NCBI GenBank assembly: GCA_020248265.1
Contig: JADCHX010000004.1
Location: 477,473-541,472, forward strand
From: Rhodocyclaceae bacterium
GTDB lineage: Bacteria; Pseudomonadota; Gammaproteobacteria; Burkholderiales; CAIKXV01
Length of the DNA: 64,000 nt
Direction: 5' to 3'
The position numbers and the translations under genes were made by a program. The notes below the pieces were generated by a model. That model saw only the letters and a list, made by a program, of their open reading frames with translations, made no database searches and was not told the DNA's origin. Shown piece after piece: positions 57,717-63,290 of this stretch (the first letter of the stretch is position 1; every line of letters starts with the position of its first letter).

Positions 57717-58667
57717 ATGAACGCGCCTGACCCGAAGCTGCTGGAGCGCCAGCGGCGAGAAGCCATCAAGCTGGAGAAGCGGCTGTGCCGCCTCGCCGGG
57801 CAGGCGATCGGCGACTTCGGAATGATCGAGGCCGGCGATCGGGTGATGGTCTGTCTGTCCGGCGGCAAGGACAGCTACGGGCTGCTCGATATCCTGATGA
57901 AGCTGCGCGAGCGCGCGCCGATCGACTTCGAGATCGTCGCGGTCAACCTCGACCAGCGGCACCCGGGCTTCCCGGAGCATGTGCTGCCCGATTACCTGAC
58001 GGCCCTCGGCGTGCCGTTCCGCATCGAAGTGCAGGACACCTATTCGATCGTCAAGCGGGTGATCCCCGAGGGCAAGACGATGTGCTCGCTCTGTTCTCGG
58101 CTGCGTCGCGGCGTGCTGTACCGCGTGGCATCGGAGATCGGCGCGACGAAGATCGCGCTTGGCCATCATCGAGACGACATCCTCGAGACCTTCTTCCTGA
58201 ACCTGTTCTTCGGCGGCAAGCTGAAATCGATGCCGCCGAAGCTCGTGTCCGATGACGGCAGGCATGTCGTGATCCGGCCGCTCGCCTACGCGGCAGAGGA
58301 CGACCTCGAGGCCTATGCGTGCCTGCGGGCGTTCCCGATCATCCCCTGCGATCTGTGCGGGTCGCAGGAGACGCTGCAGCGCAAGCAGGTCAAGGCGATG
58401 CTGCGCGAATGGGACAAGCGCAATCCCGGCCGGGTCGAGACCATCTTCCGCAGCCTGATGAACGTGGTGCCGTCGCACCTGCTCGACCGCGCGCTGTTCG
58501 ACTTCGCGGCGGTGGCAGCGGGCGCGATGCCGCACGATGCCTCCGCCGTGGACATCGGTTTCGACGTCGACGTGAACCTGGAGCGGGCGATCGATGCAGG
58601 CACGGCCGTGCGCGCCGGCACCATCCCGCTGCTGCCGGCAGCCGACAAGGCCGGCGAGCGCGGGTAG
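57717..58667 (+). CDS. ttcA: tRNA 2-thiocytidine(32) synthetase TtcA
   Basis: A 316-residue Fe-S ATP pyrophosphatase that thiolates cytidine 32 of certain tRNAs, including arginine tRNAs. The PP-loop is SGGKDS (48-53). The cluster cysteines are Cys123 and Cys126 in [11 protein letters not shown] and one of Cys211/Cys214 in [10 protein letters not shown], matching E. coli Cys122, 125 and 222-region spacing. [14 protein letters not shown] is the adenylation-linked motif. The last residues are non-conserved; the stop lies in a 13-bp tandem duplication. Confidence 0.95.
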
Positions 58668-58686
58668 TTCGCACGGGTAGTTCGCA
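58661..58686 (+). repeat. 13-bp tandem duplication spanning the ttcA stop codon
   Basis: CGGGTAGTTCGCA occurs at 58661-58673 and again at 58674-58686. The first copy contains the TAG stop of ttcA. It directly abuts the palindromic site before the next gene. Confidence 0.9.
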
Positions 58687-58717
58687 GCTTGTCAAATTCA
58701 GTTTGACGAGCTAAGCT
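58687..58717 (+). promoter_or_regulatory. Palindromic operator and promoter of the HTH-aminotransferase gene
   Basis: The arms GCTTGTCAAA (58687-58696) and TTTGACGAGC (58702-58711) form a ten-base inverted repeat with one mismatch and a five-base spacer. TTGTCA at 58689-58694 and TAAGCT at 58712-58717 are exactly 17 bases apart, a -35/-10 pair, so the palindrome covers the -35 and the spacer. The box ends seven bases before the ATG at 58725. A small HTH protein binding here would repress its own transcription. Confidence 0.6.
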
Positions 58718-58724
58718 TCGCAGC

Positions 58725-60317
58725 ATGATGAATGATCGTCTCCACGGTTCTGCCGACATCGCGGCAGACAACTGCGCCGCACGCCTGGTCGGACTGTTCG
58801 GCAGCCAGGCCGAGGTGGCACGCCGGTTGCAGCTCGACCGTGCCGTGGTCAGCCACTGGATCAAGGTCGGCTACGTACCTGCCCGCTGGGGTACCGAGAT
58901 CGAACTGGCGACCGACGGTCGCATCACCGCCTCCGAGGTTGTGGCTGAAGCGAGCAGCCGCAAGCCGATCAAGCTCAAATCTCGCCCCGACGGCGAAGGG
59001 CCGTTCGGGTCCATCCTCCAAGGGAGTGACACGATGAGTCTCCAGTACGCGCCGTCCAAGCGCATTACCTCTTTCCACCCGCCGCAGCGCACGCTGATGG
59101 GACCGGGCCCGACCGAGATCCATCCGCGCGTGCTGACGACGATGAGCCAGCCGGCGATCGGCTACCTCGATCCGGTGTTCATCGAGATGATGGAAGAGCT
59201 GAAGTCGCTGCTGCGCTACGTCTACCAGACGAAGAACGCGCTGACCTTCCCCGCCTCCGGCCCGGGTTCGGTCGGGATGGAATACTGCTTCGTGAACATG
59301 GTCGCCCCGGGCGACAAGGTCGTCGTCTGCCGCAATGGCGTGTTCGGCGGCCGGATGGTCGAGAACGTCGAGCGCTGCGGCGGCATCCCGGTCGTCGTCG
59401 ACGATGCCTGGGGCGAGCCGGTCGACCCGCAGAAACTCGAGGATGCGCTTAAGGCCAACCCCGACACGAAGGTCGTCGCTTTCGTGCATGCCGAGACTTC
59501 CACCGGCGCGCGCTCCGACGCGAAGACGCTGGTCGAGATCGCCCACAAGTACGGCGCGCTGACCATCGTCGATGCGGTGACGTCCCTGGCCGGCGTGCCG
59601 GTGCTGGTGGACGAGTGGGGCATCGACGCGATCTACTCGGGCAGCCAGAAGTGCCTGTCCTGCACCCCCGGCCTGTCGCCGGTTTCGTTCAACGAGCGTG
59701 TCGTCGAGCACGTCAAGAAGCGCAAGGACAAGATCCACAGCTGGTTCATGGACATGAACCTGCTGCACAGCTACTGGAACGGCGGTGGCGGCGGCACCAG
59801 CACGGCTCCGGTGCGTACCTACCACCACACCGCCCCGACCAACGCCCTGTTCGCGCTGCACGAGGCGCTGGTCCTCATCCGTGAAGAGGGCCTGGAGAAC
59901 GCATGGGCGCGCGCGACGCGCCACCACATGGCGCTCAAGGCGGGGCTCGAGTCGATGGGCCTGAAGTTCCTCGTCAAGCCCGAGTACCAGTTGCCGCAGA
60001 TGAACGCGGTGCTCTGCCCGGAAGGCATCGACGAGGCAAAGGTCCGCCGCACCCTGCTCAACGAGTACAACCTCGAGATCGGTGCCGGTCTCGGGCCGCT
60101 GGCCGGCAAGATCTGGCGCATCGGCCTGATGGGCTACTCCTGCCGCACCGAGAACGTGATGCTCTGCCTGTCCGCGCTTGACCAGGCCATGTCCGACCAG
60201 GGTTCGAAGATCCATGTCGGTGAAGCGCAGGGCGCAGCCCATGCGGCGTACGCCACGCTGCATGCCAGCATCGCCCAGCAGAAGAAGGACCGCGCTAAAG
60301 TCGTGCGCGCCGCCTGA
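58725..60317 (+). CDS. HTH domain fused to alanine/serine-glyoxylate aminotransferase
   Basis: A 530-residue open frame. Residues about 17-65 are a Cro/YdaS-like helix-turn-helix (LVGLFGSQAEVARRLQLD, then VVSHWIKVGYVP and ELATDGRITASEV). From Met104 a class V PLP aminotransferase follows, with MGPGPTEIHPRV, ASGPGSVGMEY, HAETSTGA, DAVTSLAG and the PLP Lys in SGSQKCLSC; this part is full length (427 residues) for serine/alanine-glyoxylate aminotransferase. AAGGGAG lies eight bases before ATG 59034, so the enzyme can also be translated alone. The product may be a fusion, the enzyme, or both. Confidence 0.88.
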   Translation: MMNDRLHGSADIAADNCAARLVGLFGSQAEVARRLQLDRAVVSHWIKVGYVPARWGTEIELATDGRITASEVVAEASSRKPIKLKSRPDGEGPFGSILQGSDTMSLQYAPSKRITSFHPPQRTLMGPGPTEIHPRVLTTMSQPAIGYLDPVFIEMMEELKSLLRYVYQTKNALTFPASGPGSVGMEYCFVNMVAPGDKVVVCRNGVFGGRMVENVERCGGIPVVVDDAWGEPVDPQKLEDALKANPDTKVVAFVHAETSTGARSDAKTLVEIAHKYGALTIVDAVTSLAGVPVLVDEWGIDAIYSGSQKCLSCTPGLSPVSFNERVVEHVKKRKDKIHSWFMDMNLLHSYWNGGGGGTSTAPVRTYHHTAPTNALFALHEALVLIREEGLENAWARATRHHMALKAGLESMGLKFLVKPEYQLPQMNAVLCPEGIDEAKVRRTLLNEYNLEIGAGLGPLAGKIWRIGLMGYSCRTENVMLCLSALDQAMSDQGSKIHVGEAQGAAHAAYATLHASIAQQKKDRAKVVRAA

Positions 60318-60536: not shown

Positions 60537-61502
60537 TTGAACGACCATTCCACCCCCACCCGAGATCCTGGCCTCCCGCCGCGGCAGCTGGATGTTGCGA
60601 TCCTGTTCGCCGACGTCGCGGGCAGTACGCGACTCTACGAGCTTTTCGGTGACCAGGCCGCGAAGAAGCTGATCGACGCCTGCCTGCGCTGCATGCGCGA
60701 GGCGGCGGTCGACTCGCGGGGCCGCGTGGTGAAGATCGTCGGCGACGAGATCATGTGCGTGTTCCCGGACGCCGAGTACGCCTATCTTGCCGCGACCGAG
60801 ATGCAGATCCGGGTGAGCGAACTCGCTACCCAGCCGGTCCCCGACTCGCAGATGCAGCCCGGCGCCCATTCGCGCGCAATCCGGGTCGGCTTTCATGCCG
60901 GGCCGGTGATCGAGGAGAACGGTGACCTGTTCGGCGACACGGTCAACGTAGCTGCGCGCATGACCGCCCTCGCCAAGGCCAACCAGATCATGACGTCCGG
61001 CGCGACGGTTGCGCGCCTGCCCGACCTTCTGCGCATCTCGACCCGCGAGATCGCCGCGCTGGCGGTCAAGGGCAAGGGCGAGGCGATCTCCGTGTTCGAG
61101 GTGATCTGGCAGGCAGGCGAAGACCTGACCATGGCGATCACAATGCAGCCGAACATCGCGAGCATCTCGATGATCATCCCCAGGTCCCTGCGGCTCGAGC
61201 GCGGCGAGTTCGAGCTGGTGCTCGACCCCGACCATCCCGGCGTGATCCTCGGGCGCGATCCCCGGTGCGAGCTCGTGGTGGCCGACCCGCAGGCATCGCG
61301 GCAGCACGCCCGTATCGATCGGCGCCGGGACAAGTTCTTCCTGATCGACCAGAGCACCAACGGCACCTTCGTCACTTTCGACGGCGAGCCCGAGATCGTG
61401 CTGTTGCGCGAGGAAGTGATGCTGCGCGGTCGCGGCCGTATCTCGTTCGGGCATTCGTCGATGGACAACGAAGAGACGGTGCGATTCTCGATGGTGCGTT
61501 GA
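60537..61502 (+). CDS. Class III adenylate cyclase with C-terminal FHA domain
   Basis: A 321-residue soluble protein. The cyclase domain (about 15-195) has metal-binding Asp26 in LFADVAGSTR and Asp70 in KIVGDE; Lys67 and Asp130 match the adenine-selecting Lys/Asp pair, and Asn137 and Arg141 in VNVAARM are the transition-state residues, so cAMP production is predicted. The FHA domain (about 225-320) keeps its phospho-threonine set: Gly239-Arg240, Ser254 and His257 in SRQHARI, Asn275-Gly276 in STNGTFV. The start is a TTG at 60537 without a strong ribosome site. A TACTCT -10-like box is at 60434-60439. Confidence 0.92.
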   Translation: MNDHSTPTRDPGLPPRQLDVAILFADVAGSTRLYELFGDQAAKKLIDACLRCMREAAVDSRGRVVKIVGDEIMCVFPDAEYAYLAATEMQIRVSELATQPVPDSQMQPGAHSRAIRVGFHAGPVIEENGDLFGDTVNVAARMTALAKANQIMTSGATVARLPDLLRISTREIAALAVKGKGEAISVFEVIWQAGEDLTMAITMQPNIASISMIIPRSLRLERGEFELVLDPDHPGVILGRDPRCELVVADPQASRQHARIDRRRDKFFLIDQSTNGTFVTFDGEPEIVLLREEVMLRGRGRISFGHSSMDNEETVRFSMVR

Positions 61503-61622
61503 GCAGGTATCGGCAGGCGATCCGCTCGGGATCGTGCGGCGAACCGCTGCAGGCATGGATTGACGCCGCTACCGTCTGCGACGATGCTGCCAGCGGTTCC
61601 ACTGCAAGCGCCTGCCGCCGAC

Positions 61623-63290
61623 ATGTCCCGACTTCGTTTCTCCATTGCGTCGACCGACGATGAGTTCGAACAGGTCCATCGTCTGAACCACGACACGTTC
61701 TGCCTCGAGATCCCGCAGCATCCGGCGCGGTCCGATGGTCGCATGGTCGATCGCTTCCATGCCGAGAACCTGTATGTCGTCGGCAAGTGCGGCGACGAAG
61801 TGGTTGCGATGGTCGCGCTGCGCGATCGGCGTCCGTTCTCTCTGGACGCGAAGCTGCCGTCGCTCGACGACTGGCTGCCCCCGGACCGGTGCACCGGGGA
61901 GGTGCGCCTGCTCGCGATCCGGCCGCGCCACCGGCATCGTGGCGCGATCGCTGGCCTGATGCGCGAGCTGTGGCGCACGGCCCACAGCCGCGGCCTCGAC
62001 CTGCTGCTCATATCGGGCACGACCCGGCAATTGAAGCTCTATCGGCAGCTCGGCTTCGAACCGTTCGGGCCGCGCGTCGGTTCCGTCGACGCGGAGTACC
62101 AGCCGATGCTGCTGCGGCGGGAGGCGCTGAACACCAGTCTGCGTTCGGTGGCGCACGCCCGTCCAGCCGGGGAAGGGCTGGCCGCGGCGCCCTTCTCGCC
62201 ATCACTCCCCCGGGTCGTCCCCGCGGTGCTGCAGGCCGCGGCCGTCCATCCGCGCGCGCACCGAGGCAGAACGGTGATGGCCACGCTGCGCCGGATACGC
62301 GAGCGTCTGTGTGCGGCGACTGGGGCGGAGGATGTGCAGGTGCTGGCCGGGACCGGTACGCTGGCCAACGACGCGATCGCAGCCCAGCTCGCGCGGCGTC
62401 CCGGCCGGGGACTGGTGCTGGTGAACGGCGAGTTCGGTGAGCGGCTCGCTGCACACGTGTCCGGTGCTGCTGCGGCGGCCGACGTGGTTCGGGTCGACTG
62501 GGGGCAGGCCTTCGACTTTCCCGCGATCGCGGCGTCGCTGGCTGGGCAACGGCCGGCATGGGCCTGGATGGTCCACTGCGAAACCTCGACCGGCCGCCTC
62601 AACGACGTCGATGGGTTTCGCGCCCTGTGCGAACGTCTCGGTTGCCTGCCGGTGCTCGACTGCGTGAGTTCGATCGGTAACCTGCCGGTAGCGCTCGGCG
62701 GAATCGGCCTGGCTTCCGGCGTCAGCGGCAAGGGTCTCGCCGCACTGACCGGGTTGGCACTGGTATTCCACCGTGCCGATGCGCTGGTTGCCGCGCGCCT
62801 GCCAGGTATGCCGCGCTGCCTGGACCTCGCCTGGTACCGGGAGCAGGATGGCATCGCCTGGTCGCTGTCGTCCAACCTCCTCGATGCGCTGGACAGGGCG
62901 ATCGAGCAGTGCCGCTGGATGCCTGCATCCAGCAGCGCGCCTTCGCCGGCACCGCCTGCCCCTGGCACCCTGCATCGGGCGGTGGTGTCGCGGCTGGCTG
63001 CGGGTGGCTTGCGGGTGCTGGTGGCGGACGAGTCGGCTGCGCCATTCCTGGTCACCGTCGAACTGCCGGGCTGGCTCGATGCTGCCGCTGTCGGCGCCGC
63101 CATGCAGCGTGCGGGCAGCACGATCGCCTGGGAGAGCCGCTACCTGCGCGAGCGCAACTGGGTGCAACTCGCCTGGATGGGACGACGCAGCGAACACGAG
63201 GTACTGGCGGCAGCCGATGCGCTGGTACGCTGCTGCCGCCAGCAGGCACTCGTACAGGATCTGCCTCCGCTTAGGCAACGGACGGCCTGA
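61623..63290 (+). CDS. GNAT acetyltransferase-class V aminotransferase fusion
   Basis: About 555 residues. The N-terminal domain (1-165) is a GNAT fold: FSIASTDDEFEQVHRLNHDTFCLE resembles the N-acyl amino-acid synthase (FeeM-like) entry, EVRLLAIRPRHRHRGAIAGLM carries the acyl-CoA pyrophosphate loop, and LKLYRQLGFEPFG ends it. The C-terminal domain (about 190-540) is a class V PLP aminotransferase: VLAGTGTLANDAIA, HCETSTGRLND, LDCVSSIGNLP and the PLP Lys in SGVSGKGLAALTG. I chose ATG 61623, where the GNAT domain begins; ATG 61584 and TTG 61560 are in frame. It is not the usual gene arrangement, and acylation plus transamination of one amino acid is an inference. Confidence 0.85.
   Translation: MSRLRFSIASTDDEFEQVHRLNHDTFCLEIPQHPARSDGRMVDRFHAENLYVVGKCGDEVVAMVALRDRRPFSLDAKLPSLDDWLPPDRCTGEVRLLAIRPRHRHRGAIAGLMRELWRTAHSRGLDLLLISGTTRQLKLYRQLGFEPFGPRVGSVDAEYQPMLLRREALNTSLRSVAHARPAGEGLAAAPFSPSLPRVVPAVLQAAAVHPRAHRGRTVMATLRRIRERLCAATGAEDVQVLAGTGTLANDAIAAQLARRPGRGLVLVNGEFGERLAAHVSGAAAAADVVRVDWGQAFDFPAIAASLAGQRPAWAWMVHCETSTGRLNDVDGFRALCERLGCLPVLDCVSSIGNLPVALGGIGLASGVSGKGLAALTGLALVFHRADALVAARLPGMPRCLDLAWYREQDGIAWSLSSNLLDALDRAIEQCRWMPASSSAPSPAPPAPGTLHRAVVSRLAAGGLRVLVADESAAPFLVTVELPGWLDAAAVGAAMQRAGSTIAWESRYLRERNWVQLAWMGRRSEHEVLAAADALVRCCRQQALVQDLPPLRQRTA

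Follow-up and report, generated by a model that had tools for sequence, protein, structure and literature searches.

The locus analysed here raises the question whether a metabolic enzyme can carry its own repressor, that is, whether a single gene encodes an aminotransferase with a DNA-binding head that acts on the promoter from which both are expressed. The window, i.e. the whole stretch of DNA that was analysed, comprises 64,000 nucleotides of a Rhodocyclaceae bacterium (contig JADCHX010000004.1), and all positions refer to it. The reading frame and its parts are:

58725..60317, + strand: full-length helix-turn-helix (HTH)-aminotransferase fusion, 530 aa; the start codon lies 7 nt past the -10 element, probably leaderless
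58770..58961, + strand: Cro/YdaS-type HTH domain, residues 16-79, modelled as five helices
58839-58868, + strand: recognition-helix region of the HTH domain, about residues 39-48
58962..59033, + strand: inter-domain linker, residues 80-103, probably disordered, varying in length by whole codons only
59034..60317, + strand: aminotransferase-only form from an internal ATG, 427 aa
59649-59651, + strand: the PLP lysine, Lys309 in the numbering of the full-length protein

Inspection of this frame in the window reveals no stop codon anywhere between 58725 and 60317. When the N-terminal part is searched in isolation, residues 22-71 match the Pfam family YdaS_toxin (E 5e-9) and a match to P22_Cro is also found (E 1e-6). 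The domain was assigned to the Cro/YdaS type because the YdaS_toxin score exceeds the curated cut-off of 30 bits both on the full protein (32.6) and on the isolated domain (36.3). A match to the NCBIfam domain "carph-isopro" stays below its own cut-off, and no paper on this domain was found. Residues 153-455 match Aminotran_5 (E 4e-23), while the match to Aminotran_1_2 is much weaker (4e-5).

The structure model of the full-length protein is reliable for the HTH only, the enzyme part being poor due to a shallow alignment. Within the HTH five helices are predicted with a pLDDT of about 80 across the domain, giving the all-helical fold of Cro proteins; the best PDB match of this model is Xfaso 1 Cro (3bd1, TM 0.85 by target, E 1.3e-3), and N15 Cro in complex with operator DNA (6on0) is also among the best matches. 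Model confidence is low past residue 80, which agrees with a linker that is flexible. The enzyme aligns along nearly its whole length with alanine-glyoxylate aminotransferase 1vjo (E 6e-106), its nearest solved relative; when scored against the NCBIfam equivalogs BhcA, PhnW and pyridoxamine-pyruvate transaminase it falls far short of their cut-offs. The lysine of the SQK motif is invariant in 48 sequences, as are many other enzyme residues. A class V fold-type-I sequence together with the PLP lysine places the protein among the alanine/serine-glyoxylate-type aminotransferases, and by its sequence it looks catalytically complete; transamination with glyoxylate would be its putative activity.

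The genome of the window is a multi-contig draft, and a missed stop or frameshift could in principle have joined two genes artificially. When relatives and the GTDB collection were searched, 125 fused loci were obtained, 98 of them distinct, and in all of these, including L057, the HTH is in frame with the enzyme. As the same in-frame fusion recurs at 98 distinct loci from many independent assemblies, we reject an assembly or sequencing artefact, the probability of which is practically nil. The claim of the sequence-only reading that the HTH runs without a stop into the enzyme is thereby confirmed, since the stop between the domains which it had named as refutation was sought in the 98 distinct loci and found in none.

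The fused loci all belong to a single betaproteobacterial order, within which they span six families. When 300 genomes were sampled evenly from this order, 37 were seen to carry this HTH, again in six families (f1, f6, f11, f29, f39, f46), and every readable carrier has a frame of about 500 aa or longer. A 94-aa frame in G163 was considered as a split gene and rejected, as the frame stops at the contig end. In a class-wide sample of 369 genomes the fusion is absent from the 368 genomes other than that of the window, and the one other match is weak and lies within a 73-aa frame. The apparent distant fusion in G282 was rejected too, because its HTH is attached to another protein, which is RhuM-like (a likeness judged from reading). 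At L146:1074-2429, in another member of the order, a RhuM-like protein carries a related small HTH, which indicates that this kind of HTH has been fused to other proteins as well. Six loci (L038, L046, L062, L078, L100, L111) are titled Bordetella parapertussis; they are environmental MAGs and look misnamed.

The fused locus is chromosomal and stable. The gene ttcA lies within the upstream DNA at 55 of the 86 eligible fused loci and is also found near five enzyme-only genes. One genome (G007) harbours two fused copies (L007 and L037). The dN/dS ratio is 0.084 in the HTH and 0.079 in the enzyme, and in the linker it amounts to 0.17; judged by this sequence comparison, the HTH is under purifying selection equal to that of the enzyme. 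Thirteen HTH residues are invariant, namely F25, G26, Q28, A29, R33, R39, A40, W45, K47, Y50, P52, R54 and W55. The linker has seven different lengths, for which the tree requires a minimum of ten changes, each by a multiple of three, and inside this otherwise variable region K85-S86-R87 (58977-58985) is invariant; this Lys-Ser-Arg could perhaps make an extra DNA contact.

If the head binds DNA, its own promoter is the place to look for a site. The features there are:

58689..58694, + strand: -35 element TTGTCA, which doubles as the left edge of the operator
58690..58708: predicted operator core, a 19-bp palindrome TGTCAAAnTnAnTTTGACA (window version TGTCAAATTCAGTTTGACG), assigned by cross-species conservation
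58712..58717, + strand: -10 element TAAGCT, separated from the -35 by a 17-nt spacer

A generic promoter scan found no promoter here, a miss explained by the weak -10 of the window (TAAGCT), and the promoter assignment consequently rests on cross-species conservation. The pattern TTGTCAAAnTnAnTTTGACA-n3-TAnnnT is present upstream of all 97 fused genes with readable upstream DNA, the family consensus of the -10 being TAnnnT, often preceded by TGn. In these 97 promoters the operator-consensus score is 13-16 out of 16, as against 12 or less in shuffled controls, and TTGTCAA is invariant. The left half of the palindrome is the -35 itself (TTGTCA, the sigma-70 optimum being TTGACA) and the right half falls within the 17-nt spacer. 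The dyad symmetry is 81% complementary about one base centre and 16-32% about neighbouring centres, and it takes in a central T/A pair that a promoter alone does not require. On the evidence of this conservation, the palindrome is not due to chance. The operator is still present where the HTH, of all those found, has diverged most (56% identity), and at both fused copies of G007. The inverted repeat with one mismatch which the first reading had seen across the -35 and spacer is present in the window, with arms of 11 nt (58686-58696 and 58702-58712) set 5 nt apart, and the presence of the palindromic core in all 97 homologous promoters supports the proposed layout of an autorepressor with a predicted operator over its own promoter. 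Directly before the operator, at the end of ttcA, a tandem 13-nt repeat CGGGTAGTTCGCA occupies 58661-58686 and includes the ttcA stop codon. Operator position 17 co-varies with HTH residues, but as a specificity signal this was dismissed, since the co-variation follows clades and lies mostly outside the recognition region.

A site in this position could also serve activation of the gene by its own product. Some Cro/CI-type regulators activate, and the CI-like PaaR2 does so at a low level (PMC8630535). However, a protein bound to this site would lie across the -35 and the spacer and block the polymerase there, and the conserved -35 together with the often extended -10 suggests a promoter which needs no help. 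We therefore think that activation is very improbable. Repression agrees with what is known of YdaS, a repressor and Cro analogue whose DNA binding lies over the region of its own promoter (PMC8630535).

The distance between the -10 and the first start codon has consequences for translation. In 51 of 97 loci this codon lies 6-10 nt past the -10 (7 nt in the window), which leaves a leader of about 0-4 nt, so that the mRNA is probably leaderless. Leaderless initiation is not universal: in about one half of the species the start codon lies 16-101 nt past the -10, so that the leader measures roughly 10-95 nt. A second initiation site is found inside the frame:

59020..59026, + strand: internal Shine-Dalgarno AAGGGAG for the short form, seven nt before the ATG at 59034, conserved at the nucleotide level

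The Shine-Dalgarno energy averages -1.4 kcal/mol at the first start over all loci and -7.0 kcal/mol at the internal start. A value of -4 kcal/mol or lower is reached by 92 of 96 internal starts as compared with 32% among 580 in-frame ATGs that served as controls (p 1e-34), and the glycine codon at the internal Shine-Dalgarno is GGG or GGA in 73 out of 74 cases versus 15% within the enzyme (p 2e-56); both p values count related sequences as if they were independent and thus overstate the odds, although the contrast is large. In some lineages the glycine is replaced by Glu or Arg, and there the Shine-Dalgarno is kept in another phase (GGAGAG, AAGGAG). The suggestion that the enzyme is also made alone from the ATG at 59034 thus gains comparative support from the strong Shine-Dalgarno in 92 of 96 loci and from its protection at the codon level. 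For E. coli mRNAs with a 5'-terminal AUG and an internal Shine-Dalgarno start, translation from both is possible (PMC4965119).

The strong internal ribosome site means that the HTH is not needed for translation of the enzyme. It could therefore be argued that the HTH part is just an upstream frame or a translational spacer without a DNA-binding role, and that the palindrome belongs to another transcription factor. Against this, purifying selection on the HTH is as strong as on the enzyme and residues of the recognition region are invariant. Furthermore, operator and HTH are present and missing together. The 15 enzyme-only homologues, which are 66-86% identical across the anchor region and begin about at the residue corresponding to the internal Met, have neither HTH nor operator, and their upstream DNA scores 8-11, equal to the shuffled background. 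One of them (G031) is nested within the fused clade of the enzyme tree, a position that fits a joint loss of HTH and operator; on this tree the label fused/unfused requires three changes in total, and at least two of these changes are forced by well-supported branches.

The operator is also essentially restricted to this gene in each genome checked, which speaks against the spacer reading as well. With one mismatch or less the genome of the window contains one site. In 17 related genomes the self-site is present, one per gene copy, with few or no others, and most genomes checked have a single strong site, the self-site; these counts rest on pattern searches. The sequence does not belong to this regulator exclusively, since palindromes at one mismatch or less also turn up in a few genomes that lack the fusion. 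In one of these, G258, a perfect site next to a LysR-like gene was judged unrelated, and a genome-wide palindrome search at two mismatches was discarded as too loose to define a regulon. Taken together, we regard a mere spacer role of the HTH as very improbable.

The comparative evidence establishes that fusion, predicted self-operator and dual start have been maintained in evolution, and from them we strongly infer binding, repression and two proteins. Very probably the locus encodes a self-contained autoregulated enzyme, in which a Cro-type autorepressor is fused to an alanine/serine-glyoxylate-type aminotransferase and long and short forms are made. The HTH head would bind the 19-bp palindrome that lies across the -35 and spacer in its own promoter. 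The bound protein would block RNA polymerase, resulting in direct negative feedback on the amount of enzyme. Fold-type-I aminotransferases are dimers. Each enzyme dimer would hence offer two HTHs to the two half-sites, which these could reach via the flexible linker. Translation of the long repressor-enzyme would begin at or near the 5' end of the mRNA, after a very short leader or none at all. The enzyme alone would be made from the internal ATG with its strong Shine-Dalgarno on the same mRNA, and of the two forms it is probably the more abundant. We infer that long and short forms would also combine into mixed dimers.

The enzyme part might in addition act as a sensor, as the first reading proposed, so that substrate or the PLP/PMP state alters the geometry of the HTHs and hence repression, as in a trigger enzyme. 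Such gating possibly extends autorepression and does not exclude it. It would be in line with the invariance of the active-site lysine and many other enzyme residues, and with the use of PLP-linked aminotransferase-type domains as sensors in MocR regulators (PMC5320631). However, the linker appears long and disordered in the model, which favours simple tethering over tight allostery, and simple concentration-dependent autorepression fits equally well; we consider the gating possible, though rather doubtful. Similarly tentative is a wider proposal, according to which the ratio of leaderless to Shine-Dalgarno initiation sets repression, mixed dimers with one HTH bind the palindrome poorly and substrate occupancy is possibly read too, making the fusion a new type of PLP-enzyme autorepressor independent of MocR.

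Downstream of the fusion an adenylate/guanylate cyclase catalytic domain is fused to an FHA domain (60537-61502, + strand). Two genes downstream of the fusion, a GNAT/FeeM-like N-acyltransferase is fused to another class V aminotransferase domain (61560-63290, + strand), and a homologue of the latter follows one of the two fused copies of G007 in the corresponding position.

In the open-access literature searched, no description of this HTH-aminotransferase fusion was found; each part, and the general plan, can be compared with known systems. The HTH resembles Cro/YdaS-type phage repressors (Xfaso 1 Cro 3bd1, N15 Cro 6on0, P22 Cro, E. coli YdaS) in sequence and modelled fold, and the predicted operator resembles their palindromic sites of about 18 bp, which lie over promoters including their own. 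Unlike in these repressors, the HTH is here part of a metabolic enzyme at a conserved chromosomal locus, away from a phage immunity region and with one operator. The enzyme shares the full-length match and the PLP lysine motif SxSQKxL with alanine/serine-glyoxylate aminotransferases (1vjo AGT, 3isl PucG, AGXT), but these match the enzyme part alone and are without a comparable DNA-binding domain. PutA, BirA and NadR are trigger enzymes with fused DNA-binding domains, i.e. metabolic enzymes which repress transcription; the fusion differs from them in enzyme and HTH, in its conserved dual start and in its single self-operator.

The closest parallel in architecture is the MocR/GabR subfamily of GntR regulators (GabR, PdxR, TauR, EnuR), with the common plan of an N-terminal DNA-binding domain followed by a fold-type-I PLP-enzyme domain, which in MocR can also act as dimeriser and ligand sensor (PMC5320631, PMC6677901). 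MocR proteins combine a GntR winged helix with an aspartate-aminotransferase-like (class I/II) domain and mostly bind multi-box sites (PMC5320631, PMC6677901). Here, in contrast, Pfam finds YdaS_toxin and P22_Cro and no GntR, the fold matches Cro proteins, and the best family and structure are Aminotran_5 and alanine-glyoxylate aminotransferase. MocR boxes are often several, with direct and inverted repeats mixed, whereas the fusion has one palindromic self-operator, keeps the active-site lysine and has an internal start for the head-free enzyme. Therefore, although the fusion resembles MocR in architecture, it is not a MocR regulator. It represents a second, apparently independent way, after MocR, in which a PLP aminotransferase and a DNA-binding domain have been brought together, and unlike in MocR the enzyme looks catalytically complete, its own gene appears to be the only clear target and a head-free form seems to be built in. 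The fused, unfused and secondarily lost states provide a natural experiment on how enzymes become regulators, and the highly constant and nearly unique operator makes self-repression readily testable. If true, the locus would also show, for a metabolic gene, a leaderless start and a Shine-Dalgarno start paired on a single mRNA.
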